Source: Fretibacterium sp.
Lineage (GTDB): Bacteria; Synergistota; Synergistia; Synergistales; Aminobacteriaceae
Assembly: GCA_024681935.1 (NCBI GenBank)
Contig: JAIKZX010000045.1
Location: 1 to 33,331 of the forward strand
Reading direction: 5' to 3'
DNA length: 33,331 bases
Made by a program: the position numbers and the translations under genes. Each line of letters starts with the position of its first letter. Positions within the stretch are counted from its first letter, which is position 1. Shown piece by piece: positions 446-20,154 of the stretch. The notes under the pieces are model-generated. The model searched no databases and was not told where the DNA came from. It worked only from the letters and a program-made list of their open reading frames with translations.

Positions 446-1393
446 CTACGCCCCCCTGATAATGCGGGTTCCCGTTGTTCCTTTCAGCGCCTCCCGCGCC
501 TTTTGAAGGTGCGTGATGAGGGCGACGCGGTCCGGCCCGGATTTGACAAAGCGGATTCCCGCCTGCACCTTCGGCAGCATGGAGCCGGGGGCGAACTCGC
601 CGTCAGCTATATATTTCTCTGCCTCGGCAACAGTCATAGCATCAAGCCCTTTCTGGTCCGGCTTGCCGAAATGGATTGCCACCTTCTCCACAGCGGTGAG
701 GATCAGAAGCATATCGGCCTCGATGCTCTCCGCCAAAAGCGACGCGGAGAGGTCCTTATCGATGACTGCCGGAACACCAGCCAGATGTCTGCCCTGAGAT
801 ACAACAGGGATGCCGCCGCCCCCGCAGCAGATGACCAGGTGTCCCGCGTCCGCCATGGCGCGGATGGCCTTCAGCTCGATAATCTCCACAGGCCGGGGGG
901 ACGCCACTACGCGCCTGTACCCCCGCCCGGCGTCCTCCTTCACAATCCAGCCGCGCGCGCCGGCCTCCTTCAGCGCCGCCTCCTTCGTCATAAAGCCGCC
1001 GATGGGCTTGGTGGGGTCTTTGAAGGCCGGGTCCTCCGCGTCCACACGCACCTGCGTCACAAGGGAGGCCATGGCCGGTGGCTCCCTGTCCCGGTTCAGA
1101 AACTCCTCGCGCAGGGCATTCTGAATGTCGTAGCCGATGTACGCCTGACTCATGGCGACACACACGGACAGCGGGACAGTGAAGGAGTTGTTGTTCTGCG
1201 AGTATTCCGTCATGGCGTTGTTGATGACGCCCACCTGGGGGCCGTTGCCGTGAACAATCACGACCTCATGACCATCCACAATCAGGTCCACGATAGCCTT
1301 CGTCGTGACCTGGGCCGCCTTGAGCTGTTCGGGAAGAGTGTTGCCCAGGGCGTTTCCGCCGAGGGCAAGCACGATTTTTTTATGTTCGCTCAT
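446..1393 (-). CDS. arcC: Carbamate kinase
   Basis: 315 aa; KKIVLALGGNAL..., VIVHGNGPQVG, CCGGGGIPV amino acid kinase/carbamate kinase motifs. Confidence 0.95.
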   Translation of the reverse strand: MSEHKKIVLALGGNALGNTLPEQLKAAQVTTKAIVDLIVDGHEVVIVHGNGPQVGVINNAMTEYSQNNNSFTVPLSVCVAMSQAYIGYDIQNALREEFLNRDREPPAMASLVTQVRVDAEDPAFKDPTKPIGGFMTKEAALKEAGARGWIVKEDAGRGYRRVVASPRPVEIIELKAIRAMADAGHLVICCGGGGIPVVSQGRHLAGVPAVIDKDLSASLLAESIEADMLLILTAVEKVAIHFGKPDQKGLDAMTVAEAEKYIADGEFAPGSMLPKVQAGIRFVKSGPDRVALITHLQKAREALKGTTGTRIIRGA

Positions 1394-1396
1394 GGG

Positions 1397-2593
1397 TTAT
1401 ACCCTGAAGACTCTCTCCTGACCGCGCTTGTCCAGCTTTTGGAGCACTGCCGCCGGGTCCGCGAATCTCTCAAGCAGAATCATGGCCGCGATGACGTAGG
1501 GCTTGAAGCTGGCCTGCTTATACAGCGGGGTCCGGTAACGGTCGAACACGGAGCCGTCCACCTCGCCCTCCCTGCAGGAGACGCCGGAGATGTCCGCGGG
1601 CAGGCAGTGAAGGTAAAGAGCCTTGCCGCCCTTCGTGAGCTTCATCATGTCCTCGGTGCAGGCCCAGTCTTTGTGCCCGGCGTTCTGCTTCAAAAGCTCC
1701 TTCTCCAGCGCGTCGATGCCCGCCTGGTCTCCGTCGCCATAGAGTTTCGTCCGCTTCTCCATGGCGGCGAAGGATGCCCAGGACTTTGGATAGACCACGT
1801 CAGCGTCCTTAAAGGCTTCCTTCATGTCGTTGGTGATGCTGAACGTGCTGCCGGCGGCCTGGGCGTTTTTCTTTGCCACGTCGACCACGCCCGGCATGAC
1901 CTCGTAGCCCCTGGGATGGGCAAGGACAACATCCATTCCCAGCCGCGTGAACAAGCCGATGACACCCTGAGGCACGGAGAGAGGCTTGCCGTAAGAGGGG
2001 GAATAAGCCCAGCTCATAGCAAGCTTCTTGCCCTTCAGTTTTTCAATGCCGCCAAACTCATGAATGACGTGGAGCGCGTCGGCCATGCACTGCGTCGGGT
2101 GGTCGATGTCGCACTGGAGGTTCACCAGCGTGGGCCGCTGCTCCAGAATGCCGTCCTTATGTCCGGCCTCCACCGCGTCCGCTACATCATGCATATACTT
2201 GTTGCCCTTGCCGATGTACATATCATCGCGGATTCCAATGATATCCGCCATGAAGGAGATCATATTCGCCGTCTCGCGCACCGTCTCCCCGTGGGCCACC
2301 TGGGACTTCTTCTCGTCCAGGTCCTGAACCTCCAGCCCCAGAAGATTGCAGGCGGAGGCAAAGGAAAAACGGGTGCGGGTGGAGTTGTCGCGGAAAAGGG
2401 AGATTCCCAGCCCGGAATCAAAAACCTTCGTCGAGATGTTCCGTTCCCGCAGGTTTCTCAGGGCATCGGCCACCGTCCATACAGCCTTGAGCTCGTCGTC
2501 CGTCTTCTCCCATGTCAGGAAAAAATCGTTCTGGTACATCCTGTCGAACCTGAGTCCGTTCAGGGCACTGATATAGTCCTTAAATTCTGCCAT
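1397..2593 (-). CDS. ygeW: Knotted carbamoyltransferase YgeW
   Basis: 398 aa; FRDNSTRTRFSFASACNLLG (STRTR motif), LHCLPADISGVSCREGEV; neighbours arcC, ygeY and ygeX. Confidence 0.92.
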   Translation of the reverse strand: MAEFKDYISALNGLRFDRMYQNDFFLTWEKTDDELKAVWTVADALRNLRERNISTKVFDSGLGISLFRDNSTRTRFSFASACNLLGLEVQDLDEKKSQVAHGETVRETANMISFMADIIGIRDDMYIGKGNKYMHDVADAVEAGHKDGILEQRPTLVNLQCDIDHPTQCMADALHVIHEFGGIEKLKGKKLAMSWAYSPSYGKPLSVPQGVIGLFTRLGMDVVLAHPRGYEVMPGVVDVAKKNAQAAGSTFSITNDMKEAFKDADVVYPKSWASFAAMEKRTKLYGDGDQAGIDALEKELLKQNAGHKDWACTEDMMKLTKGGKALYLHCLPADISGVSCREGEVDGSVFDRYRTPLYKQASFKPYVIAAMILLERFADPAAVLQKLDKRGQERVFRV

Positions 2594-2654
2594 TTGTCAT
2601 TGACTTCCTTCCCTATCTTTAAATATTGGCCTTTCCGCACCGGACAGGCAGCGT

Positions 2655-3983
2655 TCAGTCGCAGTAGTACCGGGGCAGGGCCGCGTAAAAGGCCGCGCAG
2701 GTCACAAGATCGTTCTTCCATGTGATTTCGTTGGGGGCGTGGGCCTGAGCCTCCGCGCCGGGACCAAAACCAATCACGGGGATGCCGTTGCGTCCCATGA
2801 TGGAGACGCCGTTGGTCGAGAAGGTCCATTTGTCCAGCAGAGGACGGGCCTCCCGCTCCTTCACGGTCTCCTCGTCGCCGATGCGCTTATCGCCGAAGAG
2901 GTCCGTGTACGCGGCAACGGCAGCTTTGCAGACCTTGTGATCCTCCGGGATGACCCACGTGGGAAAATAACACTCGATGGGATAGACACAGCCCGTGTAG
3001 GAAGGCCTGTCGTAGTGGTACATGGAGACCTTCACGTCGTCGCCGTACTTCTTCACGGCGGGCAGGTCACGGATCTCCTGAAGGCAGGATTCCCAGGTCT
3101 CTCCCGCGGTCATGCGGCGGTCAAGAGACACGGCGCAGGAGTCAGCCACCGCGCAGCGGGAGGGTGATGTGAAGAATATCTCCGAGGCGGTGACGGTGCC
3201 GCGGCCAAGGAACCGCGCTTCCTTCCATTCGGGGTTGTACCTGGGGTTCAGCATCCTGACGAGGCCCCTGATGTCCGTGGACTCGGCGTCGCCGTTATTG
3301 TTGAGGGCGCGCACGTCCCTCAGGATATCGGCCATTTTGAAGATGGCATTGTCGCCGCGCTCAGGGGCGGAGCCGTGACAGGAGACGCCCTTCACGTCGA
3401 TGCGGATCTCCATGCGGCCCCGCTGCCCGCGGTAGAGCCCTCCGTCCGTAGGCTCGGAGGAGACAACGAAGGCCGGCCTGATCCTGTCCTCCTTGCAGAT
3501 GTACTCCCAGCAGAGCCCGTCGCAGTCCTCCTCCTGGACCGTGCCCACAACCATGACCTTATATTTGCTGTTGAGGAGTCCCAGATCCTTCATAATCTTT
3601 GCGGCGTAGACCGCGGAGACCGTGCCGCCAAGCTGGTCGGAGACACCGCGCCCGCCGATCCGGTGTTCGTCCTCAAAGCCCTCGTAGGGGTCGAACTTCC
3701 AGTTGTCCCGGTTCCCAATGCCGACTGTGTCGATGTGGCCGTCAAAGGCAATCAGGGTGGGGCCGTTTCCGATGAAGCCCATGACGTTCCCCTGGGGATC
3801 GACCTTCACCTCGTCGAAACCCACCTTCTCCATCTCCGCCTTAATGACGGCGACATGATCGGCCTCACCCGCGGACTCCCCCGGGTGCTTCACAATGGCA
3901 CGGAGGAACGCGGTCATATCCGCACGATAACCCTCCGCCGCCGCTTTGATCTTCTTCAGTTCATCCTGCGTCAGCTTGCCCAT
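2655..3983 (-). CDS. ygeY: YgeY family selenium metabolism-linked M20-type hydrolase
   Basis: 442 aa; metallopeptidase M20 features ([49 protein letters not shown]). Confidence 0.92.
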
Positions 3984-4012
3984 AATGTTCTCCTCTTTTT
4001 AAAAAAATGAGC

Positions 4013-5212
4013 TTAACGCTCTTTCGCTTCCCACACGATATTTTGCCAGCGCTCCGGGTCTGTGTCACCCTCCGTTGAGAAGAGCAAAACTCTGGAATCC
4101 CGGTCCAGTTTGAGCGCCTTGCGAAGTTCCTGGCAGTCATCGCATTTCATGATGGAAGCCAGCGCGCCGAAGGGGGCGGCTCCGGACTCCCCGGAGGTGA
4201 CCTGCGCGTCACCCTTCAGCGGAGCGGCCAGCATTCTCATTCCCCGCGCCGCCACGGGGTCCTCGGCAGAGATAAAACAGGTTACATGATTTTTAAGGAT
4301 GTCCCATGAGGTGATGTTGGGCTCTCCGCAGGCAAGGCCGGCCATGATGGTGTCCATGTCGCCCTCAACAATGCGGGGCTTTCCATCCCCCGCGACGGCT
4401 CCCTTGTAGAGGCACGCCGCCGCCGCCGCCTCAACCACAACCATGACGGGGGGATTATCTTTATAAAGATTGGAGAAGAACCCCACCATGGCCCCGGCGA
4501 GGGAGCCCACGCCGGCCTGGACAAAGATATGCGTGGGGCGCCCGCCAAACTGCTCCGCGGCCTCGGAGGCCATGGTGCCGTAGCCCTGCATAATCCACGC
4601 GGGTATCTTCTCATATCCCTCCCAGGCCGTGTCCTGCACCACCACGCCGTGCCCTCCCTTTGAGTTCTCCTCTTCGGCAAGCTTTGCCGCCTGGCGCACG
4701 CATTCGTCGTAGTTCACGTCGGATATCCACGCCTTCGCATTCTCGGCAAGGATATTGTTCAGGCGCGTCTGGGTTGAGCCCCTGGGCATGATGATAACAG
4801 CCTTCTGCCCAAGCTGGTTGGCCGCCCAGGCCACCCCGCGCCCGTGGTTGCCGTCCGTAGCGGAGAAGAAGGTAGCCGAGCCAAATTTCTTCTTCAGTTC
4901 TTCGCTCTTCAGGACATTATAAGGGAGCTCCGACACGTCCACGCCAATCTCTTCTGCGATATAACGGGCTATGGAATAAGAACCGCCCAGAACCTTAAAG
5001 GCATTCAGCCCAAAGCGCCAGGATTCATCTTTGATTTTAACCGCGCCGAGGCCAAGATACTCCGCCATCTTCGAGAGATCCGCCATCGGCGTCACCGAAT
5101 ATTGCGGGAAACTCTCATGGAACTTTCGGGCCTTTGCCACTTCCCCAACGGACATGACAGAAAGGTTTTTATCCCCGGTTTTGGGCATCCGGTTCATGAC
5201 CCATTTCAACAT
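4013..5212 (-). CDS. ygeX: Diaminopropionate ammonia-lyase
   Basis: 399 aa PLP fold II enzyme; RFGLNAFKVLGGSYS, SATDGNHGRGVAWAA, SGESGAAPFGAL; adjacent to ygeY/ygeW. Confidence 0.93.
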   Translation of the reverse strand: MLKWVMNRMPKTGDKNLSVMSVGEVAKARKFHESFPQYSVTPMADLSKMAEYLGLGAVKIKDESWRFGLNAFKVLGGSYSIARYIAEEIGVDVSELPYNVLKSEELKKKFGSATFFSATDGNHGRGVAWAANQLGQKAVIIMPRGSTQTRLNNILAENAKAWISDVNYDECVRQAAKLAEEENSKGGHGVVVQDTAWEGYEKIPAWIMQGYGTMASEAAEQFGGRPTHIFVQAGVGSLAGAMVGFFSNLYKDNPPVMVVVEAAAAACLYKGAVAGDGKPRIVEGDMDTIMAGLACGEPNITSWDILKNHVTCFISAEDPVAARGMRMLAAPLKGDAQVTSGESGAAPFGALASIMKCDDCQELRKALKLDRDSRVLLFSTEGDTDPERWQNIVWEAKER

Positions 5213-5256
5213 CGATATCCCCCTTTTGATTTAATTCCGACGGTGCTGCTGCTCAT

Positions 5257-5272
5257 TATATTATATAATATA
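5257..5272. promoter_or_regulatory. 16-bp perfect AT palindrome (TATATTATATAATATA) in the divergent ygeX / symporter intergenic region
   Basis: Self-complementary sequence between the divergent starts at 5212 (-) and 5303 (+); overlapping -10-like elements on both strands. Confidence 0.5.
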
Positions 5273-5302
5273 CCCAACTTTGTTACAGAAAGGGGTATTG
5301 TC

Positions 5303-6772
5303 ATGCAGGCAAATCTTATGGTCATTTCCATCGTCGTGGCGTACATGCTGTTTATGTTGTGGATTGGCTGGTACTCCTCAACAAAAGTCCGCAGCAACAC
5401 GGACTTCATGGTGGCTGGACGCCGGCTTGGCCCGCTCATGATGGCGGGGACCCTGGCCGCGACGGAAATTGGCGGAGGCAGCTCGCTGGGCGTGGTGCAG
5501 AATGGAATGTCCGGCTTCGGCCTGAGCGCGTCGTGGTACATCGCCACGATGGGGCTGGCCTTCATCGTCCTGAGCTTCATCGCGCCAAAGTTCCGCCTGT
5601 CCGAGGTCAAGACCGTCCCTGAGTACTTCCGCAGAAGGTACGGAAAGGAGTGCGGCTTCATCACCTCCATCATCATGCTGCTGCCGCTCATTGGCCTCAC
5701 GGCGGGTCAGATCATCGCGTCGGCGGTTATCTGCTCCACCATGCTGGGCATCAGCTACTCCACGGCAGTCATCCTGATTTCAGTCATCATCACGCTATAC
5801 TCTGTCATGGGCGGCCTCTGGAGCGTCACCATGACGGATAACGTGCAGGTATTCCTGATTGTCGCCGGCATGATTATCGCCATTCCCTTCGCTCTGAACT
5901 TCGCCGGGGGCTGGGACGCGGTGGTTGCCAATATCCCGGAGGGGACGCTTGCGCTGTTTGACGGCCCCGGCAAGAGCTATAGAATCATGGACATCGTCTC
6001 GCTGACGGTGATGTACGTCGCCACCTTCGCCGTGGGGCAGGAGGCCGTCTCCCGCTTCTACGCCGCAAAGGACGGCCAGTCCGCAAAGGCGGGCGCGTGG
6101 TGGGCCGCAATCATCAACTTCATCTATGCCTTCATCCCCACAATCCTGGGAATCATCATGCTCGCCCTGATCAACATGGGCAAGTTCAACGCCTCCGATT
6201 TCGCCAGCGTGGGCGCGCGCTACGCTCTGCCCGTCCTCGCCATTGAGGTTATGCCTGCCGCTATCTGCGGGCTCCTGTTTGCCGGCATTATCTCCGCAAC
6301 GATGTCCTCCGCAGACTCCGACCTTCTGGGCGCAGGGGCCATCTTTTCCAACGACATCTACAAGCAGTTCATCAAAAAGGACGCAACCAGCAAGGAAGTC
6401 ATGCGCGTCACTCAGATCACAATGGTGCTGGTGGGGCTCATCTCCATGTTCATCGCGCTCTACAACACCCAGAGCATCGTCACCATCCTGATGTTCAGCT
6501 TCACGCTTCGCGCGGCCGGTTCCCTGTTCCCGTATATCATCGGGATGTACTGGGACAGGGCCTCGAAGGCCGGAACCATCGCCTCCCTCATCGCGGGGAC
6601 GGTGATGGTGGTGTACCTGGAGAGGATCTCGGGCGGAAATCTCTTTGGGATGCACATCAGCCAGCCGATCATTCCGGGGCTGGCCGCGGGCCTGGTCTTC
6701 TTCATCCTGTTCTCCTACCTCATGCCGCCGGCAGAGAGGACAACGGAACTTGCGGCCGAGGAAGATATTTAG
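5303..6772 (+). CDS. Sodium:solute symporter (SSS) family transporter
   Basis: Start taken at ATG 5303, where the hydrophobic protein begins; the track ORF starts earlier at 4844, antisense to ygeX. GWYSSTKVRSNTDFMVAGRRLGPLMMAGTLAATEIGGGSSLG and TMSSADSDLLGAGAIFSNDIYK are typical of SSS proteins. Confidence 0.9.
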   Translation: MQANLMVISIVVAYMLFMLWIGWYSSTKVRSNTDFMVAGRRLGPLMMAGTLAATEIGGGSSLGVVQNGMSGFGLSASWYIATMGLAFIVLSFIAPKFRLSEVKTVPEYFRRRYGKECGFITSIIMLLPLIGLTAGQIIASAVICSTMLGISYSTAVILISVIITLYSVMGGLWSVTMTDNVQVFLIVAGMIIAIPFALNFAGGWDAVVANIPEGTLALFDGPGKSYRIMDIVSLTVMYVATFAVGQEAVSRFYAAKDGQSAKAGAWWAAIINFIYAFIPTILGIIMLALINMGKFNASDFASVGARYALPVLAIEVMPAAICGLLFAGIISATMSSADSDLLGAGAIFSNDIYKQFIKKDATSKEVMRVTQITMVLVGLISMFIALYNTQSIVTILMFSFTLRAAGSLFPYIIGMYWDRASKAGTIASLIAGTVMVVYLERISGGNLFGMHISQPIIPGLAAGLVFFILFSYLMPPAERTTELAAEEDI

Positions 6773-6830
6773 TCTTTTTCATCCATAACGCGCGGATATA
6801 GTCAAAATCAATCGCTCGCTGTGCGGGCCT

Positions 6831-6861
6831 GTCATCCCCGGAGCGTTTCTCCGGGGATGAC
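6831..6861. terminator. Perfect hairpin between symporter and ssnA (GTCATCCCCGGAG-CGTTT-CTCCGGGGATGAC)
   Basis: 13-bp perfect arms, 5-nt loop, 26 bp upstream of the ssnA GTG start; no following T-run, so termination versus RNA processing/stabilisation is open. Confidence 0.6.
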
Positions 6862-6887
6862 GTTAATGCGGCAAGGGGGGAAACGCT

Positions 6888-8216
6888 GTGTTAGTTATTG
6901 CCAATGGAAAGGTTGTCACCCGAAACCCCGAACAGCCCTTCATTGAGGACGGGGCCGTCGTCCTCGATGGAAACAGCATCCTGGAGGTTGGGGGCTCCGG
7001 CCTGCGTGAAAAATACGCCGGCGCCGAATTCATCGACGCCCGGGGCGGGGTCATCATGCCAGCCTTCATCAACACCCACGAGCATATCTACTCGGCCATG
7101 GCGCGGGGCCTGTCCATTAAGGGATACGCCCCCAGGGGATTTCTCGACATCCTTGACGGACAGTGGTGGACGATTGACCGTCACCTCAACAACGGGCTCA
7201 CGAAGCTCAGCGCGCTGGAAACCTATGTGGAGTGCATCAAAAATGGCGTGACGACCCTGTTTGACCACCACGCAAGTTTTGGGGAGATTGCCGGCTCCCT
7301 CTTTGCCATTGAGGAAGCCGCAAAGGAAACAGGGGTGCGGAGCTGCCTCTGCTACGAGATATCCGACCGCGACGGCGAGGAAAAGATGAGGGCCGCCGTG
7401 AAGGAAAACGTGGACTTTGCCCGTCACGCCCTGGCCGACAACTCGGACATGATTGCCGGCATGATGGGGATGCACGCCAGCTTCACCCTCTCCGACAAGA
7501 CCATGGAACTGTGCCGGCAGGAGAAGCCGGATGAAATCGGCTGTCACATCCATGTGGCGGAGGGGATACTGGATCTGCAGGAGTGCCTGGCGAAACATTC
7601 AAAGCGCATCGTGGACCGTCTCTACGATTGGGACATACTGGGACCCAAGACGCTGCTGGCGCACTGCATCTACGTCAACCCCCACGAGATCGCCCTGATC
7701 AAAGACACCGGGACCATGACAGTACACAACCCGGAGTCCAACATGGGCAACGCCTGCGGCTGCCCCCCCACGATGGAGCTGGTCCATCAGGGCATCGTCA
7801 CCGGGCTGGGAACGGACGGCTACACCCACGATATGATCGAGTCCTGGAAGGTGGCAAACATCCTGCACAAGCACCACCTGTGCGACCCCGGCGCGGCGTG
7901 GGGCGAAGTGCCGGAAATGCTGTTTAAACACAACGCCACAATTGCAAACCGTTACTTCAGGAAAAAGCTCGGCGTCCTGGAAAAAGGCGCAGCAGCAGAC
8001 GTCATCGTGGCGGACTATATTGCCCCAACTCCGCTAAACGGCGCCAATATCAACGGGCATATCCTCTTTGGCATGAACGGCCGCTCCGTCGTCACAACCA
8101 TAGCCAACGGCCGCGTGCTGATGAAGGACCGCGTATTGCAGCATATCGACGAAGAGGCGGTCATGGCCCACGTCCGTGAGGGGGCGGAACGGCTGTGGCG
8201 CAGCATCAACGGCTGA
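6888..8216 (+). CDS. ssnA: SsnA-type putative aminohydrolase (amidohydrolase superfamily)
   Basis: 442 aa, GTG start; FINTHEHIYSAMARG, DHHAS, HIHVAEG, LAHCIYV, VHNPESNMGNACG, GTDGYTHDM metal-site motifs; followed by ygfK. Confidence 0.92.
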   Translation: MLVIANGKVVTRNPEQPFIEDGAVVLDGNSILEVGGSGLREKYAGAEFIDARGGVIMPAFINTHEHIYSAMARGLSIKGYAPRGFLDILDGQWWTIDRHLNNGLTKLSALETYVECIKNGVTTLFDHHASFGEIAGSLFAIEEAAKETGVRSCLCYEISDRDGEEKMRAAVKENVDFARHALADNSDMIAGMMGMHASFTLSDKTMELCRQEKPDEIGCHIHVAEGILDLQECLAKHSKRIVDRLYDWDILGPKTLLAHCIYVNPHEIALIKDTGTMTVHNPESNMGNACGCPPTMELVHQGIVTGLGTDGYTHDMIESWKVANILHKHHLCDPGAAWGEVPEMLFKHNATIANRYFRKKLGVLEKGAAADVIVADYIAPTPLNGANINGHILFGMNGRSVVTTIANGRVLMKDRVLQHIDEEAVMAHVREGAERLWRSING

Positions 8217-8235
8217 CAAAAGGGGGGAAAAGACA

Positions 8236-11200
8236 TTGAGCGACATCATGACGCCCATCCCTTTCCCAAAACTGATGGAAAGGATTTTGGATGAGCATGA
8301 AAAGGGCTCCTGCGACAGGCAGGAGGCCTTAGTGCCGGCGGCGGCGCAGGGATGCGCCCGCTTGCCGACGGCCTTCGGCGTGAGGAAGTGCTATAAGGCG
8401 AATCCCAACCGGTATTTCACGCTCTTTGGACGAAAACTGGAGACGCAGATTGGTCCGGCGGCGGGGCCCAACACACAGCTTGCACAGAACATCGTGGCCT
8501 CGTATTACGGCGGCGCACGGTTCTTTGAGCTGAAAACGGTGCAAAAGATCGACGGCCGGGAGCTCGCGGCGGCCGTTCACAAGCCCTGCATCTGGGCCGA
8601 GGACGAGTGCTACAACTGCGAGTGGTCCACGGAGCTCACCGTTCAGCAGGCCTACGAGGAATACGTCAAGGCGTGGTTCGCTCTCAGGGTTATCGCAAAG
8701 GAGTGGGGCCTGGGCTCACCCGACGGCTTCCAGTTCAACATCTCCGTGGGCTACGACCTGGAGGGCATCAGGGGGCCAAAGATCAACACGTTCATTGACA
8801 ATATCATGAACGCCGGGGACACTCCTGTCTGGAAGGAGTGCAAAGCCTGGCTGAAAGCCCATCTGAACCGTTTTTCCCATATCACGGAGGAGGACGTTGA
8901 GGCAATAAACCCCGACATCGTGAACTCCGCGACGGTCTCCACGCTGCACGGCTGCCCCCCCCAGGAGATTGAGGCCATCGCGTCCTATCTCCTCACGGAG
9001 AAAGGTCTGCACACCTTCATCAAGTGCAACCCGACGCTTCTGGGCTACGAGGAGGCCCGGAGGACGCTGGACGATATGGGTTACGGCTACATTCAGTTTA
9101 CGGACGTACACTTTAAGGGCGATCTGCAGTACGCCGACGCAATCCCCATGCTGACCCGGCTGAAAAAGCTGGCCGCCGGCAGGGGCCTGGAGTTTGGCGT
9201 CAAGATAACCAACACCTTCCCGGTGGACGTGACGCGGAACGAGCTGCCCTCGGCAGAGATGTATATGTCCGGCAAGTCGCTTTATCCCCTTTCGCTCCGC
9301 GTGGCCCGCAACCTGTCGCGGGATTTCAAAGGAGAGCTTCGTATCTCCTTCTCCGGCGGCTGTGATTTCTTTAATATCGCCCGTGTCATCAGCACAGGAA
9401 TATGGCCCGTGACGATGGCGACGACGCTTTTAAAACCCGGCGGGTACGAGCGGCTGGTCCAGATTGCGGAAAGGCTGGATAAAGAGGGGGTCACGGCATG
9501 GCAGGGCGTTGACGTTCCGGCGCTGGAGGCTCTGAGCGACGCGGCCAGGACCGACCCGCATCACGTCAAGCCCGTCAAGCCGCTGCCCAAACGCAAATCC
9601 GAGGCAAAGGTGCCGCTGGTGGACTGCTTCACCGCTCCCTGCTCCGACCGCTGCCCCATCCATCAGGACATCACGGCCTATGGCCAGCTCGTGGGCGAGG
9701 GAAAGTTTGCGGAGGCTCTGCGCGTCATTCTGGCGAAGAATCCGCTTCCCTTCATCACGGGGAACCTCTGCACGCACACCTGTCAGACCGCCTGCACGCG
9801 AAACCACTATGAGACGCCGGTGCAGATACGCAGCAACAAGCTCATCGCGGCGCGGAAGGGCTATGACACCGTCATCAGGGAGCTGAAGCCCGGCGCGTCC
9901 AATGGCAAAAAGATCATCATCATCGGCGCGGGGCCGGCCGGGATTGCGGCGGCGTTCTTCCTGGCACGGGCCGGCGCGGACGTGACGGTTTACGACGAAA
10001 ACGAGAGGGCCGGAGGCGTTATCCGGAACGTCATCCCCTCCTTCCGCATCCCTCAGGACGAGATACAAAAGGATGTGGCCCTCGCTGAGGCGGCCGGCGC
10101 AAAGTTCGTCCTGAACCATCGCGTGGAGAGCATAAAGGACCTGAAGGCCGACGCGGTGCTTCTCGCCATCGGGGCCCATCAGGACACCCCCCTGACACTG
10201 AAGCAGGGCAAGGCCATCAACGCTCTGGACTTCCTGAAGGACTTCAAAAAACACGACGGACACCTCCGGCCCGGGGAAAACATCGCCGTCGTGGGCGGCG
10301 GCAACACGGCAATGGATACAGCCCGCGCCGCGAAGCGAACGGACGGAGTTAAGAACGTCTGCATCGTCTATCGCCGCACCCGGCGCTATATGCCGGCAGA
10401 CGAGGAGGAGCTGAACGACGCGCTGGCGGACGGTGTGGAGTTTAAGGAACTCCTTGCCCCCGTCTCGCTGGAAAACGGCCGTCTCATCTGCCATAAAATG
10501 GAGCTGGGCGAGGCCGACGCCAGCGGCCGCCGCGGCGTGAGGGAGACGGACGAGGTCGTGGAGATTGCCTGCGACACGGTGATCGCCTCCATTGGAGAGA
10601 AGATCGGCGCGGACTTTTACAGGGCCAACGGCATTGAGGTCGACGCAAAGGGACAGCCTGTTCTGAACCCGGACACCTGCGAGACCTCGTTGAAGGGGGT
10701 CTACGCCATTGGCGACGGGGCGTTTGGCGCGTCGGTCGTGGTGCGGGCCATCGCGGACGCGCAGAAGGCCTGCTCCGCCCTGCTGGGGCGGGACATCGCC
10801 ACGGGCCGTAAGCCTGAGCTGACGGACCTGGCCGTCTACGCCAGGCGCGGCATCCTGGAGGAAGCGCCCCAGTCCGGCACAGCGGACACCCGCTGCCTGA
10901 CCTGCGACCTCATCTGTGAGAACTGCGTGGAGGTGTGCCCAAACCGCGCCAACGTCTCCATTCGTGTTCCCGGTCACAAAAACCAGATAATCCACGTGGA
11001 CTCCATGTGCAACGAGTGCGGAAACTGCACGGTTTTCTGCCCCTACGACTCTTCTCCCTACAGAGACAAATTCACTCTCTTCGCGGACGAGGCGGACATG
11101 AAGGAATCCGAAAACGATGGATTTGCCTTTAAGGGAACGGACAAGGCCGTGGTCCGCGTGGCGGGAGAAAAGTTTGATTATCAGATCGGGCAGAAGGACA

Positions 11201-11271
11201 CGGCCTTTGATGCCCGTCTGGCCGGGGTAATCGATGCGGTCTTTCGGGATTACCCGTATTTGCGGTCATGA
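8236..11271 (+). CDS. ygfK: YgfK: putative selenate reductase-type flavin/Fe-S oxidoreductase subunit
   Basis: Likely TTG start at 8236 (MSDIMTPIPFPKLMERI); N-terminal dihydropyrimidine dehydrogenase-like region, GltD-like FAD/NAD domain (IIIIGAGPAGIAAAFFLARAG, VVGGGNTAMDTARAA), C-terminal Cys-rich ferredoxin region. Confidence 0.93.
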   Translation: MSDIMTPIPFPKLMERILDEHEKGSCDRQEALVPAAAQGCARLPTAFGVRKCYKANPNRYFTLFGRKLETQIGPAAGPNTQLAQNIVASYYGGARFFELKTVQKIDGRELAAAVHKPCIWAEDECYNCEWSTELTVQQAYEEYVKAWFALRVIAKEWGLGSPDGFQFNISVGYDLEGIRGPKINTFIDNIMNAGDTPVWKECKAWLKAHLNRFSHITEEDVEAINPDIVNSATVSTLHGCPPQEIEAIASYLLTEKGLHTFIKCNPTLLGYEEARRTLDDMGYGYIQFTDVHFKGDLQYADAIPMLTRLKKLAAGRGLEFGVKITNTFPVDVTRNELPSAEMYMSGKSLYPLSLRVARNLSRDFKGELRISFSGGCDFFNIARVISTGIWPVTMATTLLKPGGYERLVQIAERLDKEGVTAWQGVDVPALEALSDAARTDPHHVKPVKPLPKRKSEAKVPLVDCFTAPCSDRCPIHQDITAYGQLVGEGKFAEALRVILAKNPLPFITGNLCTHTCQTACTRNHYETPVQIRSNKLIAARKGYDTVIRELKPGASNGKKIIIIGAGPAGIAAAFFLARAGADVTVYDENERAGGVIRNVIPSFRIPQDEIQKDVALAEAAGAKFVLNHRVESIKDLKADAVLLAIGAHQDTPLTLKQGKAINALDFLKDFKKHDGHLRPGENIAVVGGGNTAMDTARAAKRTDGVKNVCIVYRRTRRYMPADEEELNDALADGVEFKELLAPVSLENGRLICHKMELGEADASGRRGVRETDEVVEIACDTVIASIGEKIGADFYRANGIEVDAKGQPVLNPDTCETSLKGVYAIGDGAFGASVVVRAIADAQKACSALLGRDIATGRKPELTDLAVYARRGILEEAPQSGTADTRCLTCDLICENCVEVCPNRANVSIRVPGHKNQIIHVDSMCNECGNCTVFCPYDSSPYRDKFTLFADEADMKESENDGFAFKGTDKAVVRVAGEKFDYQIGQKDTAFDARLAGVIDAVFRDYPYLRS

Positions 11272-12644: not shown

Positions 12645-12672
12645 GCGGCACAGCGAATTATCGCATTATAAT

Positions 12673-12702
12673 ATTACCAGGGGCGCGTTTGCCCCTGGTA
12701 AT
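12673..12702 (+). terminator. Perfect hairpin followed by U-rich tract; terminator/attenuator between hyuA and the molybdopterin-binding gene
   Basis: ATTACCAGGGGC-GCGTTT-GCCCCTGGTAAT, 12-bp perfect arms, then TATTTTAT. Confidence 0.75.
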
Positions 12703-12736
12703 TATTTTATCTGCGTGCAGACAGGAGGGCGAGACC

Positions 12737-13759
12737 GTGAAGCTCATGAAAACGGAGGACGCCGTGGGGCAGGTCCTGTGCCACGACATCACGCAGATCA
12801 TCAAAGACGTGAAGAAGGGCCCCGCGTTCAGGAAGGGACATATCATCACGGAGGAGGATATCCCCATCCTCCTGAGCCTGGGGAAGGATAATATCTACAT
12901 CTGGGAGATGGACGAAAACAGGGTCCATGAGAACGAGGCAGCGATGATCCTATGGGATATCTGCCGGAGCGAGGGAATGAACCACTCAGAGGTCAAGGAG
13001 GGCAAGGTGGAGATCATCGCCGGCCGGGAGGGACTTTTGAAGGTAAACCATGAGCTCCTGAACAAACTCAACTCCCTTGGGGAAATGATGATCGCCTCCC
13101 GGCACGGCAATTTCGCCGTAAGACCGGGTGATGTCATTGCCGGGACCCGGATTATTCCCCTTGTTATCGAAAAGGAAAAGCTGGAGCGGGCAAGGGAGAC
13201 CGCGGCGGGAAGCCCCGTATTCAGGATTTTGCCTTTTCTGCACAAAAAGGCGGGCATCGTCACAACAGGAAACGAGGTCTATCATCACAGGATCAGTGAC
13301 ACCTTTACTCCCGTGGTTGAGGAGAAGCTGGCGGAGTTTGGCGCGGAGATCACAGGGCGGGAGACCAGCCCGGACGACCCGGAGATGGAGATTGCGTGCA
13401 TCAGAAGACTTCTCGATAAGGGCGCGGACATGATCCTCTGCACGGGAGGCATGAGCGTTGACCCCGACGACAGGACCCCCTTCGCAATCCGGTGCGTGGC
13501 GGACGAGGTGGTGACTTACGGGGCTCCCGTTTTGCCGGGAGCCATGTTCATGCTGGCGTATCGGGGCAAAGAGCATATTCCCATCATGGGGCTTCCGGGC
13601 TGCGTCATGTACGCGAAAAGGACGGTTTTTGACCTGGTTCTGCCAAGGATCATGGCGGGCGAAGTGCTGAAGAAAGCGGATATCGATTCTCTGGGGCAGG
13701 GAGGGCTTTGTCTTAACTGCAGGGTCTGCGTCTTCCCCAACTGCGGGTTTGGGAAGTGA
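12737..13759 (+). CDS. Molybdopterin-binding (MoeA-like) protein with C-terminal CxxCxxCxxxxC motif
   Basis: GTG at 12737 after AGGAGGGC RBS; EDAVGQVLCHDITQI, DMILCTGGMSVDPDDRTP, YGAPVLPGAMF; C-terminus GGLCLNCRVCVFPNCGFGK. Confidence 0.85.
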   Translation: MKLMKTEDAVGQVLCHDITQIIKDVKKGPAFRKGHIITEEDIPILLSLGKDNIYIWEMDENRVHENEAAMILWDICRSEGMNHSEVKEGKVEIIAGREGLLKVNHELLNKLNSLGEMMIASRHGNFAVRPGDVIAGTRIIPLVIEKEKLERARETAAGSPVFRILPFLHKKAGIVTTGNEVYHHRISDTFTPVVEEKLAEFGAEITGRETSPDDPEMEIACIRRLLDKGADMILCTGGMSVDPDDRTPFAIRCVADEVVTYGAPVLPGAMFMLAYRGKEHIPIMGLPGCVMYAKRTVFDLVLPRIMAGEVLKKADIDSLGQGGLCLNCRVCVFPNCGFGK

Positions 13760-14775
13760 GCGGCATGACGGCCTTTTACGATAAGCTCCCGGAACTGGAC
13801 CCCGGCCGGGAAACGCTCATCCTGACTCTGCTGGACGGCAGCGGCATGGGGGAGAAGGCGCTGTTGTCTGACGGAGAGATCGTCTGGACCTCAGGGCAGG
13901 ATGAGTTTTTCTCCCTTCACGCCGGAGAGGCGCAAAACGTGACGGGCGTTCAGGAAATCGACGGAAGGCGCGTTTACAGCGAACGTCTTGAGCATGAAAA
14001 GAAGATTGTGATCTGCGGGGCCGGGCACGTCTCCATCCCCATTATCAGGCTCGGCCGGATGATCGGATGCCGGGTGACCTGCATTGACGACAGGCCCTCC
14101 TTCGCCGGAAACGCCAGGGAGGCCGGGGCTGACCCTGTGCTCTGTGACAGCTTTGAGAACGCATTGAACACCATAACGGGGGATAAGGATACCTTCTTTG
14201 TGATCGTCACCCGCGGGCACCGCTGGGACCAGCAATGCTTAAAGGCCATCGCGGCAAAGCCTCATGCCTACATCGGGCTGATGGGGTCTGTAAAAAGGGT
14301 CCGCATGGTCAAAGAAAACCTGTTGAGGTCCGGAGTTCCAAAGGATGTTCTGGATGAAGTCCACACCCCCATCGGCCTGAAAATCGGGGCCGAGACACCG
14401 GAGGAAATTGCCGTTTCCGTCATGGCGGAGATTATTGAGGTAAAAAACCGGCATGGACGGGGGGCGGGATACCCCGACGCGATTCTGAAAGCGCTGGGCC
14501 AGCCCGGAAGGAAGGTTCTGCTTACCCTCATCGCCCGCAGGGGCTCCGCCCCACGGAGCGTGGGGACAAAAATGCTGGTCCTCCCCGATGGAACCTGCGT
14601 GGGGACAATCGGCGGCGGGTGCGCGGAGGCCGCGCTGATTCAAAAAGCAAGGGATATGCTCTCCGGCGGGACGCTCAGGCCTCAGCTTTATCATGTGGAC
14701 CTGGCGAGGGAGGAGGCCGCTGAGGCGGGCATGGTGTGCGGCGGCACCCTGGAGCTGCTGCTGGAAGTCCTGTAA
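13756..14775 (+). CDS. XdhC/CoxI family molybdenum hydroxylase maturation factor
   Basis: 339 aa; KKIVICGAGHVSIPIIRLGRMIGCRVTCIDDRPSFA Rossmann domain and GSAPRSVGTKMLVLPDGTCVGTIGGGCAEAALI CoxI-type motif; 4-nt overlap with the upstream gene. Confidence 0.88.
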   Translation: MSGMTAFYDKLPELDPGRETLILTLLDGSGMGEKALLSDGEIVWTSGQDEFFSLHAGEAQNVTGVQEIDGRRVYSERLEHEKKIVICGAGHVSIPIIRLGRMIGCRVTCIDDRPSFAGNAREAGADPVLCDSFENALNTITGDKDTFFVIVTRGHRWDQQCLKAIAAKPHAYIGLMGSVKRVRMVKENLLRSGVPKDVLDEVHTPIGLKIGAETPEEIAVSVMAEIIEVKNRHGRGAGYPDAILKALGQPGRKVLLTLIARRGSAPRSVGTKMLVLPDGTCVGTIGGGCAEAALIQKARDMLSGGTLRPQLYHVDLAREEAAEAGMVCGGTLELLLEVL

Positions 14776-14803
14776 AAAGAAGAGAACGTGAGGAGTGACT
14801 GTC

Positions 14804-15586
14804 ATGAAAAAAATGATGGCATTTATGACAATAATTATGTGGGCTGCCGCGTGGGGAGTTATCCCCTGCCGTGCCATGGCGGAGGATAAGACGGTTCTGA
14901 CGGTCTTTGCCGCCGCGTCCATGCAGGCGACCATGGAGCAGACCGCGGCGCTTTATATGAAGGCGCACCCCGATGTCCGGATTCTTTATAACTTTGATTC
15001 CTCGGGCACGCTCAAGACACAGATTGAGGAGGGCGCGGAGTGCGATTTGTTTATCTCCGCCGCGCAGAAACAGATGAACGCCCTGGAGAAGGCGGGCCTC
15101 ATTGTCCCCTCGACGCGGGTGAACCTTTTGGAGAATAAAGTGGCGCTCGTCGTCCCTGACGGGAACAAAGCGGGTATCCACTGCTATGAGGATCTGGGAA
15201 CGGATAAGCTCCGCACGATTGCCCTGGGCAATTCCGACGTGCCCGTCGGCGCGTATTCTCAGGAGATCCTCACAAACATGGGGCTCTGGGACAGGCTGAA
15301 CGCCGAAAACAAAATCTCATTCGCCAGCAACGTCACCGAGGTCGCCATGCAGGTGCGGGAGGAGGCCGTGGACTGCGGCATCGTTTACGCGACAGACGCG
15401 GCAACCCACAAGCTGACTGTCGTTGCCGAACCTCCCGCGGGCACGCTCAAAACGCCTGTCGTCTATCCCGCGGCGGTTCTGTCCCGCTCCGCCCACGAGG
15501 CCATAGCCCGCGCATTTTTGGAATATCTCATGTCCCCGGAGGCCCGTGAGATATTTGCCTCCGTTGGTTTTGCCCCGGCAAAATAA
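14804..15586 (+). CDS. modA: Molybdate ABC transporter substrate-binding protein
   Basis: Signal peptide, VLTVFAAASMQATMEQTAALYMKAHPDVRILYNFDSSGTLKTQIEEGAECDLFISAAQKQMNAL; ATG at 14804 preferred over GTG at 14795. Confidence 0.93.
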   Translation: MKKMMAFMTIIMWAAAWGVIPCRAMAEDKTVLTVFAAASMQATMEQTAALYMKAHPDVRILYNFDSSGTLKTQIEEGAECDLFISAAQKQMNALEKAGLIVPSTRVNLLENKVALVVPDGNKAGIHCYEDLGTDKLRTIALGNSDVPVGAYSQEILTNMGLWDRLNAENKISFASNVTEVAMQVREEAVDCGIVYATDAATHKLTVVAEPPAGTLKTPVVYPAAVLSRSAHEAIARAFLEYLMSPEAREIFASVGFAPAK

Positions 15587-15601
15587 GCGAACGGCCGGCT
15601 T

Positions 15602-16261
15602 ATGGACTGGTATCCTCTGCTGAACTCCCTTCGGGTGGCGCTCATCTCCTGCGTCGTGGTGTTCTTCACCGGCATCGCGGCCGCCTATTACGCCGCGAAA
15701 CTGCCGCGGCTGATGAAGGGCTTTCTTGACGTGGCGCTGACTCTCCCGCTGGTGCTGCCGCCCACGGTGGTGGGCTATTTTTTGCTGCGCCTTCTGGGGC
15801 CGCGCCGGGCCCTGGGGCTCTGGGTGCTGGAACATTTTGGGGTGCGCCTCACCATGACGTGGTACTCGGCCGTTTTTGCCTCCGTCGTGGTGGCGTTTCC
15901 GCTGATGTACCGGACGGCGCGGGGAGCTTTTGAGTCCTTCGACAGGACGCTGGAGGAGGAGGCGCAGACGCTGGGGGCGTCAAACACCGCCATTTTCTGG
16001 CTTATTCGCGTACCCTGCTGCCGCCAGGGGCTCATCGCGGGGATTATCCTGTCCTTTGCCCGCGCCCTGGGCGAGTATGGCGCAACGAGCATGATAGCGG
16101 GCTACACGCCGGGCCGGACCGCCACGATCTCCACGACGGTCTACCAGCTCTGGCGCACGGGCGACGACGAGCTGGCCATGAAATGGGTGCTGGTCAACCT
16201 GGCCATTTCCTTCGCCGTCCTGGTGACCGTAAACCTGATGGAAAGGCGGCAGGGCCGGTGA
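15602..16261 (+). CDS. modB: Molybdate ABC transporter permease
   Basis: 219 aa; LPLVLPPTVVGYFLLRLLG, EEEAQTLGASNTAIFWLIRVP, FARALGEYGATSMIAG. Confidence 0.95.
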   Translation: MDWYPLLNSLRVALISCVVVFFTGIAAAYYAAKLPRLMKGFLDVALTLPLVLPPTVVGYFLLRLLGPRRALGLWVLEHFGVRLTMTWYSAVFASVVVAFPLMYRTARGAFESFDRTLEEEAQTLGASNTAIFWLIRVPCCRQGLIAGIILSFARALGEYGATSMIAGYTPGRTATISTTVYQLWRTGDDELAMKWVLVNLAISFAVLVTVNLMERRQGR

Positions 16262-16330
16262 AACCCCACGCCGGCATTCATTCACGCCCTCTCGCGCCGG
16301 GGCCTGTCCTGCTGATGAGGCCTTAGCGAA

Positions 16331-17266
16331 ATGCGGGATACTTTTGGCCGGGAGATAAATTATATGCGCGTCTCCGTGACGGACCAGTGCAACCTTCGCT
16401 GCCGCTACTGCATGCCGGCCGGGGCGGCAGCGGCGCACGGCACGACGATGGATGAGGACGAAATCATACGCGCCATTGAGGCCGCGTCGGAGCTGGGCAT
16501 AAATAAAATCCGCATCACGGGCGGCGAGCCTCTTGTCAGGAAAAACATCCTGTCCATCTGCCGCCGCGCCGCTGCCATGCCGGGGATACGGGAGGCCACC
16601 CTCACGACAAACGGACTTCTGCTGTCTGACATGGCGGGGCCGCTGAAGGACGCGGGAATCCGCCGCGTCAACATCAGCCTGGACACGCTGGACCCGGAGA
16701 AGTACGCCCACATCACGCGGGGCGGTTCGCTCGGCCAGGCCCTGCGGGGCATAGAGGCAGCCCGTTCCGCGGGGCTCCGCGTAAAGATCAACACGGTTTT
16801 GATAGGCGGCTTCAACGACGGCGAACTTTCGCGCCTGGCGGACATGACGCGGGAGAACGACATGGATATCCGCTTTATCGAGCTGATGCCCATGACGGGG
16901 GACTTTGGACAGGACGCTTACCTGACGTTCCGGGAGGCAAGGGCACTCATCCCCGGGCTCGTCCCCCTGCCCGGGGACGGAGCCGCGCGGATGTTTCAAT
17001 TTGAGGGGGCGCGGGGGCGTGTGGGGTTCATCAGCCCCATGACCTGTAATTTTTGCTCTCAGTGCAACCGGATCCGCCTCACCGCCGACGGATATCTAAA
17101 GCCCTGCCTTCATTCCCGTCAGGAAATCCCCATAAAGGGGCTGAGCCGTGAGAAAATGAAGGAGGCCATACGGCGGGCGATCCTCGCCAAGCCGGAGAGG
17201 CACCCCTATTTATCAGCGTCGCGGCTCAGCGAGGCGGGCCGCAGCATGAACAGGATCGGAGGCTGA
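16331..17266 (+). CDS. moaA: GTP 3',8-cyclase (radical SAM)
   Basis: 311 aa; DTFGREINYMRVSVTDQCNLRCRYCMP, ITGGEPLVRKN, C-terminal MTCNFCSQCNRIRLTADGYLKPCL. Confidence 0.96.
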   Translation: MRDTFGREINYMRVSVTDQCNLRCRYCMPAGAAAAHGTTMDEDEIIRAIEAASELGINKIRITGGEPLVRKNILSICRRAAAMPGIREATLTTNGLLLSDMAGPLKDAGIRRVNISLDTLDPEKYAHITRGGSLGQALRGIEAARSAGLRVKINTVLIGGFNDGELSRLADMTRENDMDIRFIELMPMTGDFGQDAYLTFREARALIPGLVPLPGDGAARMFQFEGARGRVGFISPMTCNFCSQCNRIRLTADGYLKPCLHSRQEIPIKGLSREKMKEAIRRAILAKPERHPYLSASRLSEAGRSMNRIGG

Positions 17267-17269
17267 CTG

Positions 17270-17767
17270 ATGGCAGACTTAAGCGGCGACTTCACGCACT
17301 TTGACAGCGAGGGGCGCGCCCGAATGGTCAATGTGGAGGAGAAGGACATCACGCCGCGCCGCGCCGTGGCATCGGGGCGAATTTTCGTCAACGCCGGGAC
17401 ATTCCGTCTCATCCAAAGCGGCGGCGTCAAAAAGGGCGACGTGCTGACCGTCGCGCAGGTGGCGGGCATCATGGGGGCAAAGCGCACGCCGGACTTAATC
17501 CCCATGTGCCACCCCATCACTCTGAACGGGGTGAACCTCTCTCTCTCCCTGGACGAAGAGGCGCAGGCCGTCAGCGTCCGGGCCGAGATATCCTGCGCGG
17601 GGCGGACCGGCGTTGAGATGGAAGCGCTGACCGCCGTGTCCGTCGCCCTGCTGACGGTTTACGACATGTGCAAGTCCGTTCAGCGCGACATGGTGATTGG
17701 CGACATCCGCCTGTTGTCCAAGAGCGGCGGCGTTCACGGGGATTACGCCTGTGCCCCGCGGGTATGA
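17270..17767 (+). CDS. moaC: Cyclic pyranopterin monophosphate synthase
   Basis: 165 aa; FTHFDSEGRARMVNVEEKDITPRRAVASG, PMCHPITLNGV, GRTGVEMEALTAVSVALLTVYDMCKS. Confidence 0.96.
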   Translation: MADLSGDFTHFDSEGRARMVNVEEKDITPRRAVASGRIFVNAGTFRLIQSGGVKKGDVLTVAQVAGIMGAKRTPDLIPMCHPITLNGVNLSLSLDEEAQAVSVRAEISCAGRTGVEMEALTAVSVALLTVYDMCKSVQRDMVIGDIRLLSKSGGVHGDYACAPRV

Positions 17768-17770
17768 GAA

Positions 17771-18712
17771 ATGAGTGAAGAGATTATGCAAAAAGCGGCA
17801 GTCATCACAGTGAGCGACAAGGGATCAAGGGGGGAAAGGCAGGACACCAGCGGGCCCGCGCTGCGGCGACTTCTGGAGGAAATGGGATGGGAAACCGTTT
17901 ATGCGGCAATTATCCCGGACGAATTTGAGCTTATCCGGTCCGAACTGCTGAAATGCGCGGACAGACTGAAGCTGCCCCTCGTTCTGACCACGGGGGGAAC
18001 GGGTTTTGCCCCCCGGGACGTGACGCCGGAGGCGACGCTGGCCGTCCTTGAGCGGGAAGCGCGGGGCATTCCGGAGGCCATGCGGGCGGAGAGCATGAAG
18101 ATTACCCCGATGGGGTGTCTGTCCCGCGCCGTGGCGGGGATACGGGGGACGACGCTCATCATCAACCTGCCGGGCAGCGAGAAGGCCGCCTGCGAGTGTT
18201 TTGGCGCGGTCCTCCCCGCAATCCGGCACGGGACGGACCTTCTGGCAGGCAGAACAGAACACCCGGCGACAGTGACAGGAAAGATCCTCGCCGTCTGCAT
18301 CAGCGAACACAGGGGTGAGCAGAAGCACCCCGTGGAAAAGATCGCCCTCCGGGCCGGTCATGGAATCGAAGGCGACGCCCACGCGGGGAGCGGACACCGG
18401 CAGGTCAGCCTGCTGGGGAGGGAGAGCGTGGCAAAGCTCCAGCCCCGTGTCAGGGAAAAACTGCAGCCGGGGGCATTTGCCGAGAACATTCTTACGGAAG
18501 GGCTCTGCCTGTACGAGTTCCCGGTTGGGACGCGCCTGAAAATCGGCACCGCGGTCTGCGAGGTCACACAGATCGGCAAGGAGTGCCACGGAGACTGCGC
18601 AATCCGAAAAGCCGCCGGGGATTGCGTGATGCCGCGGGAGGGCATCTTTGTGAAGGTTCTGGAGAGCGGAGAGGCCAGGCCGGGCGACACGCTGGAGACG
18701 ATGAGGATTTAG
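17771..18712 (+). CDS. MogA/MoaB-like molybdopterin adenylyltransferase fused to a C-terminal MOSC domain
   Basis: 313 aa; N-terminus AAVITVSDKGSRGERQDTSGP, LVLTTGGTGFAPRDVTPEAT, NLPGSEKAACECF; C-terminus GIEGDAHAGSGHRQVSLLGRESV, FAENILTEG, CHGDCAIRKAAGDCVMPREGIFVKV. Confidence 0.9.
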   Translation: MSEEIMQKAAVITVSDKGSRGERQDTSGPALRRLLEEMGWETVYAAIIPDEFELIRSELLKCADRLKLPLVLTTGGTGFAPRDVTPEATLAVLEREARGIPEAMRAESMKITPMGCLSRAVAGIRGTTLIINLPGSEKAACECFGAVLPAIRHGTDLLAGRTEHPATVTGKILAVCISEHRGEQKHPVEKIALRAGHGIEGDAHAGSGHRQVSLLGRESVAKLQPRVREKLQPGAFAENILTEGLCLYEFPVGTRLKIGTAVCEVTQIGKECHGDCAIRKAAGDCVMPREGIFVKVLESGEARPGDTLETMRI

Positions 18713-20152: not shown

Positions 20153-20154
20153 CC

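Follow-up and report, generated by a model that had tools for sequence, protein, structure and literature searches.

A predicted island for reductive uric-acid degradation, with adjoining molybdenum genes, in a Fretibacterium genome

Can a member of the Synergistota degrade uric acid without oxygen, and by what route would the purine enter the cell and the pathway? The question is raised by contig JAIKZX010000045.1 of Fretibacterium sp. (GenBank assembly GCA_024681935.1; order Synergistales, family Aminobacteriaceae). Its 33,331 nucleotides, hereafter the window, are one entire contig (C198) of a 226-contig, 2.31-Mb assembly that is 98% complete. An original prediction made from the letters of the sequence had recognized, between positions 446 and 18712, a near-complete anaerobic purine/urate-type island in two divergent halves, accompanied by molybdenum supply genes. 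Our analysis indicates that the window very probably holds the downstream part of an island for the reductive (anaerobic) degradation of uric acid, whose molybdenum genes would help the entry enzyme and XdhABC.

The downstream enzymes of the pathway

Protein families were assigned by hmmscan against NCBIfam and Pfam, and bit scores were judged against curated cut-offs. All the predicted genes were recovered on the strands and in the two divergent halves assigned to them, most above their cut-offs and the remainder through SSF, MoCF, XdhC and MOSC domains. The minus-strand half comprises arcC, ygeW, ygeY and ygeX, the plus-strand half extends from an SSF symporter gene to mog-MOSC, and the two meet at 5213-5302. 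The features of the island are as follows (percentages are identities to the E. coli protein).

446..1393, minus: arcC, carbamate kinase (carbamoyl phosphate + ADP to ATP); TIGR00746, 368 bits, cut-off 358; 59.5% to YqeA
1397..2593, minus: ygeW, knotted carbamoyltransferase (ureido-group phosphorolysis); TIGR03316, 776 versus 500 bits; 65% to YgeW
2655..3983, minus: ygeY, M20 hydrolase (removal of the second ureido group); TIGR03526, 646 versus 322 bits; 67% to YgeY
4013..5212, minus: ygeX, 2,3-diaminopropionate ammonia-lyase (to pyruvate and ammonia); TIGR03528, 585 bits, cut-off 532; 48% to YgeX
5213..5302, no strand: AT-rich divergent intergenic region between the halves, read from the sequence
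5303..6772, plus: SSS/SSF-family sodium:solute symporter, candidate urate/purine carrier; PF00474, 177 bits
6888..8216, plus: ssnA, aminohydrolase opening the reduced purine ring; NF005540, 655 versus 444 bits; TIGR03314, 594 bits
8236..11271, plus: ygfK, Fe-S flavoprotein, NAD(P)H-dependent yanthine reductase; TIGR03315, 1294 versus 835 bits
11268..12644, plus: hyuA, D-hydantoinase/dihydropyrimidinase; TIGR02033, 551 bits, cut-off 393; 41% to HyuA
12673..12702, plus: terminator-like hairpin at the boundary of hyuA and the molybdenum block; z = -3.15
12737..13759, plus: divergent MoeA-like protein with MoCF domain and C-terminal Cys4 motif, putative molybdenum insertase; PF00994, alignment, MoeA/MoaB fold matches
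13756..14775, plus: XdhC-family molybdenum-enzyme maturation factor; PF13478, PF02625; NF045664, 266 bits, below the cut-off of 350
14795..15586, plus: modA, molybdate-binding protein; TIGR01256, 159 bits, cut-off 62.5
15602..16261, plus: modB, molybdate permease subunit, not followed by modC; TIGR02141, 206 bits, cut-off 183
16331..17266, plus: moaA, GTP 3',8-cyclase; TIGR02666, 332 bits
17270..17767, plus: moaC, cyclic pyranopterin monophosphate synthase; TIGR00581, 203 bits
17771..18712, plus: mog/MoaB-like domain fused to a MOSC domain; PF00994 and PF03473

Refined start codons were placed at 5303 for the symporter gene (ATG with a ribosome-binding site), 8236 for ygfK (TTG) and 12737 for the MoeA-like gene (GTG). 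Neighbouring genes are spaced by -4 to 115 bp, far from chance, and a second genome of the genus (G067) shows the identical gene order, molybdenum block included.

The assignment to the reductive urate pathway follows from the presence of all post-entry enzymes at family-specific scores and from the conservation of their catalytic residues. SsnA shares with its E. coli counterpart the HxH, H, D metal-site pattern, HyuA retains the HTH, K, H, H, D ligands of E. coli HyuA, and YgfK has 18 cysteines in common with E. coli YgfK, including clustered Fe-S motifs; the YgeW product has solved relatives (2yfk and 3q98). The pairing of SsnA with an adjacent YgfK or UacX that marks urate clusters is formed here by ssnA (6888-8216) and ygfK (8236-11271), both above their cut-offs, and HyuA, YgeW (or else UacY), YgeY and YgeX are co-located in the window.

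The reductive pathway was demonstrated biochemically in 2025 with E. coli and Clostridioides enzymes (Li et al., PMC12507026), work that is discussed together with that of Liu et al. in a commentary (PMC12990295). Urate is converted to 2,8-dioxopurine (yanthine) by XdhD or XdhAC, YgfK and SsnA then yield ureidomethyl-hydantoin, and HyuA yields 2,3-diureidopropionate (PMC12507026, PMC12990295). The ureido groups are taken off by YgeW and YgeY via a monoureido compound, in an order that is disputed; YgeX converts 2,3-diaminopropionate to pyruvate and NH3, and carbamate kinase recovers ATP from the carbamoyl phosphate released by YgeW (PMC12507026, PMC12990295). The route does not pass through allantoin (PMC12990295). 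The gene set that had been linked to anaerobic urate use (ygeW, ygeX, ygeY, hyuA, ygfK and ssnA) matches the published pathway (PMC12507026), and the proposed passage through ureido compounds and 2,3-diaminopropionate, with YgeX giving pyruvate and ammonia and YgeW with ArcC recovering ATP, was right in outline.

From homology we infer that the organism itself runs this pathway. Urate would be taken up by the island's SSF symporter or by a NAT permease encoded elsewhere, and would be reduced to yanthine by a selenium-dependent molybdenum hydroxylase of the XdhAC type. YgfK would reduce the ring, which SsnA and HyuA would open to 2,3-diureidopropionate. One carbamoyl group would be transferred to phosphate by YgeW and used by ArcC to make ATP; YgeY would hydrolyse the other ureido group, leaving 2,3-diaminopropionate for cleavage to pyruvate and ammonia by YgeX. 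The MoeA-like and XdhC-like proteins, ModAB, MoaA, MoaC and Mog-MOSC would supply and insert the molybdenum cofactor for the entry enzyme and XdhABC.

Fragments of the predicted entry enzyme, and the selenium genes, lie on other contigs

The near-completeness claimed for the island holds for the post-entry enzymes, all of which are in the window, and fails for the entry enzyme, fragments of which lie on contigs C87 and C9. This enzyme, XdhX, is a fusion of Fe-S and molybdenum parts whose N-terminus lies on C87 and C-terminus on C9, about 200 residues being unassembled. Its fragments are 83-90% identical to a full-length relative in the high-quality genome G057 that scores as TIGR03311, the selenium-dependent xanthine dehydrogenase family (1242 versus 830 bits). 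Also encoded on C9 are YqeB, a fusion of YqeC with a MocA-like domain, guanine deaminase (guaD) and a permease of xanthine type; yqeB/yqeC, selD, modC and moaD/E are absent from the window. The same genome encodes SelD with an in-frame UGA, so that SelD, YqeB and YqeC, which together define the selenium-dependent molybdenum hydroxylase trait, are all present. The suggested tie to selenium-dependent hydroxylases is supported by these genes and by the XdhX-type fragments.

An exact 141-bp assembly overlap joins C9 to C197 (locus L038) and C199 (locus L039), which are 93% identical and contain xdhABC with serine dehydratase and serine hydroxymethyltransferase genes. We rejected the view that they are two paralogous xdhABC operons: their common 141-bp prefix and suffix indicate an assembly bubble, probably of strain variants, with two strains in the bin. 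A search for end overlaps found no partner contig for the left end of the window, or for the end of C9 that carries xdhX. In G057 a single contig carries hyuA-ygfK-ssnA / ygeX-ygeY-ygeW-arcC-permease-xdhX-yqeB-yqeC-guaD-permease-xdhABC-MoeA-like-XdhC-like-moaA-moaC-mog-modAB, selD being the only member of the set located off it, and in G067 xdhX directly follows arcC.

Origin and distribution of the island

Of 83 genomes in the family, only 17 have a YgfK above the cut-off; for SsnA the figure is 46 of 183 in the order. In a tree of 98 YgfK sequences, the window protein belongs to a clade drawn from three genomes of its own genus and three of genus g11, and this clade nests with Oribacterium parvum and Lachnoanaerobaculum orale; other genera of the family fall into two distant lineages, giving three separate ygfK lineages within one family. 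E. coli YgfK forms a long branch, and its junction with the other family lineages is unsure. A single YgfK clade for the family is rejected by the approximately unbiased (AU) test (p-AU 2e-5). Since YgfK of the genus groups with that of oral Lachnospiraceae and not with that of its own family, ygfK was probably acquired horizontally. In agreement with this, the products of ssnA, ygeW, ygeX and ygeY are 75-86% identical to those of Oribacterium, versus 33-61% to those of other family genera outside g11.

The symporter and the molybdenum block

The island encodes no NAT/NCS2 permease (UacT-like, PF00860), carrying instead a PF00474 (SSF) protein. Four PF00860 proteins are found in the genome, none orthologous to the permease of the G057 cluster. 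Of 80 Bacillota-dominated loci compared for their transporter slot, 33 encode a relative of the G057 NAT permease, often adjoining ssnA, and none has a match to the SSF protein. SSF orthologues (about 60% or more identity) occur in eight genomes of the order. SsnA exceeds its cut-off in seven of these eight, compared with the 46 of 183 genomes overall; this co-occurrence has a Fisher p value of 3e-4 by genome and 0.05 by genus, relatedness being corrected for no further than that. Among the neighbours of the SSF orthologues in G012 and G163, some had no assigned family and resembled antisense or wrong-frame reading frames; these were discarded, and the MocA-like neighbour in G012 alone was kept.

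No regulator was found at the divergent junction of the window. The corresponding position in Bacillota urate clusters, as at L122 (7564-8211) and comparable loci of Lachnospiraceae, carries a PAS_6/HTH_22 (YheO-like) regulator. The gap between the symporter gene and ssnA (6773-6887) contains a perfect hairpin of 14 bp that lacks a strong T-run.

The claim that molybdenum supply genes accompany the island is correct for the genes named, yet the set is partial. In both the window and G067, modB stands directly before moaA without modC, though relatives carry a modC-like ATPase; the only candidates for a dedicated ModC elsewhere in the genome were ABC ATPases below the cut-off, 34-40% identical to the modC-like protein of G057, and were rejected. 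The predicted collinear block of pathway and cofactor genes stands as regards adjacency and the order kept in G067. The hairpin between hyuA and the MoeA-like gene has a perfect 12-13-bp stem and a T-rich tail (it is less clear in G067), and because this terminator-like element intervenes, the genes on its two sides may not form a single operon.

The MoeA-like protein has PF00994 only, MoeA_N (PF03453) and MoeA_C (PF03454) not being found, and hence does not have the domain set of MoeA. Its AlphaFold model matches MoeA and MoaB in the MoCF part, with a TM-score of 0.34 to whole MoeA. The C-terminus of its family displays a nearly invariant Cys4 motif, CxxCxxCxxxxC ('GGLCxxCxxCxFPNCxFG'), which may bind a metal or cluster. 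The protein groups in a clade with versions from Lachnospiraceae urate loci, and modAB, moaA, moaC and mog are closer to family versions than to Lachnospiraceae ones; judged by these sequence affinities, the block is a mosaic. In Lachnoanaerobaculum orale the order is ssnA-ygfK-hyuA-MoeA-like-XdhC-like-moaA-mog-modABC-moaC, and in a Subdoligranulum genome modABC, moaA, mog and moaC adjoin the urate cluster.

Weighing the alternatives

Several observations weigh against the urate assignment. The urate-reducing hydroxylase is absent from the window, and xdhX is split between contigs beside an IS21-like remnant (a transposase piece upstream of xdhX, read from translation and not from a database match), so that it may not be intact, the gene being full length and linked to the cluster in relatives; the remnant is consistent with a rearranged island. 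No modC exceeds the cut-off in the genome, and MoaE (PF02391) was not found in this 98%-complete assembly, though several molybdopterin hydroxylases are encoded. XdhX has no counterpart of the Glu606 insert found in E. coli XdhD, so that specificity for conversion of urate to yanthine rests on the published clostridial XdhAC. Li et al. suggested that Glu606 orients urate in XdhD, for E. coli only and not as a pathway-defining feature (PMC12507026). The segment is missing also from XdhX relatives of Lachnospiraceae and Clostridium, and is kept in the XdhD-type enzymes of G020, a family member, and L180, a Clostridiales genome. Clostridial XdhAC is likely of the XdhX type, judging from cluster context; if so, and if it makes yanthine as published, Glu606 is not a general determinant. 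The absence of the insert from XdhX makes the Glu606 proposal for yanthine specificity testable by comparison of enzyme types. Taken with a HyuA that scores as a general dihydropyrimidinase and a non-NAT symporter in the transporter slot, the missing insert could also mean that urate is incidental and that the physiological target is a different N-heterocycle, such as hydantoins or dihydropyrimidines, or an amino acid of the 2,3-diaminopropionate/albizziin type. We regard this as improbable: ssnA, ygfK, ygeW and ygeY together mark the urate pathway that has been demonstrated, and xdhX is flanked by guaD, the xanthine-type permease and xdhABC, a purine context.

For the symporter and the molybdenum genes the balance is closer. 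The SSF protein might, tentatively, be a sodium-coupled transporter of urate (or yanthine/xanthine), a non-homologous replacement of a NAT/UacT-type permease in a horizontally acquired island. It occupies the slot between ygeX and ssnA that is held by a NAT permease in many Bacillota, its gene is retained in each of the three genomes of the genus that bear the cluster and missing from the one that does not, and in G091, from another family, the orthologue immediately precedes ssnA, with an xdhD-type gene nearby; the occurrence of SsnA in seven of the eight orthologue genomes points the same way. These observations have to be set against the 85-87% identical orthologues of G057 and G028, which lie far from urate clusters and near genes for L-ribulose-5-phosphate 3-epimerase and an ascorbate-phosphate-lactonase-like protein, and against the best PDB relatives, which are choline and glucose transporters. 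In our estimate there is close to an even chance that the symporter carries another solute, such as proline, pantothenate or a sugar acid, and sits at the divergent junction as a passenger. The stretch from the MoeA-like gene to mog-MOSC could likewise be a general molybdenum-cofactor operon placed beside the urate genes by accident, which has a substantial though less than even chance of being right. Homologous blocks in family genomes without ygfK (G015, G048 and G062), the intervening hairpin and the resident affinity of modA, modB, moaA, moaC and mog favour such an accident; recurrence of the linkage in Lachnoanaerobaculum orale, the position of the block after xdhABC in G057 and G028, the different modABC-MoeA-like block of G066 (a member of the genus without ygfK) and the urate-locus clade of the MoeA-like protein speak for dedication to the urate pathway, which we infer. 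The general and dedicated readings are compatible, because the only molybdenum hydroxylases of the XdhX fold found in the genome are of purine type.

Neighbouring genes and contig ends

Downstream of the molybdenum block lie two probably resident genes.

19241..20152, plus: NfnA/SudB-like FAD/NAD-binding subunit; NF004862, 392 bits
20101..21645, plus: NfnB/SudA/GltA-like subunit; TIGR01316, 660 bits; similar genes across the family

This NfnAB/SudBA-like pair (19241-21645) might supply NADPH for YgfK; it is found downstream in G067 too, and in G065 on a different contig from ygfK. The right end of the contig (33191-33331), within an Hpt-domain gene, is identical to C128 over 141 bp and resembles several other contigs at 77-97%; a repeated Hpt-domain gene family broke the assembly there. 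Searches of the window yielded no RNA elements with Rfam and no tRNA with ARAGORN.

Implications

The island is a real, well-conserved, probably horizontally acquired example of a known uricolytic system, of which the possible transporter swap is the only unusual part. It places in the Synergistota an anaerobic urate pathway that now attracts interest in connection with gout and with urate clearance in the gut; we found no mention of this phylum in the text in which Li et al. survey SsnA. The SSF symporter is a concrete candidate, open to test, for a second kind of urate carrier in bacteria.

Comparison with known systems

The E. coli K-12 cluster comprises ygeW-ygeX-ygeY-hyuA-yqeA, yqeB-yqeC-mocA, ygfK-ssnA-ygfM-xdhD and uacT. 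All seven post-entry enzymes are shared with the window (33-67% identity), and the selenium and molybdenum accessory genes occur in the same genome in both. In E. coli, XdhD is used together with YgfM as FAD subunit, and the cluster includes the NAT permease UacT. The window genome instead has an XdhX of TIGR03311 type with no YgfM beside it, and its island contains an SSF symporter and is adjoined by moaA, moaC and modAB.

The original prediction had proposed a comparison of gene neighbourhoods across Synergistota and Bacillota; among the latter, close counterparts are the Lachnospiraceae clusters of Oribacterium parvum, Lachnoanaerobaculum orale, Schaedlerella and Mediterraneibacter. Many share the divergent arcC-ygeW-ygeY-ygeX / ssnA-ygfK-hyuA layout, protein identity to the two oral genera is 64-86%, and Lachnoanaerobaculum orale shows the same run from hyuA through MoeA-like and XdhC-like genes to molybdenum genes. 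At the junction, many Lachnospiraceae have a NAT permease and/or an open reading frame of about 215 residues (in Oribacterium the PAS_6/HTH_22, YheO-like regulator); the window has neither, and carries the SSF symporter instead.

With C. difficile and C. sporogenes the system shares entry through a molybdenum hydroxylase (XdhAC or XdhD) and the same intermediates (PMC12507026, PMC12990295), and growth of C. difficile on urate needs selD and yqeB (PMC11448449). C. difficile uses uacX in place of ygfK and uacY in place of ygeW/yqeA (PMC12507026), whereas the window keeps YgfK, and YgeW together with ArcC.

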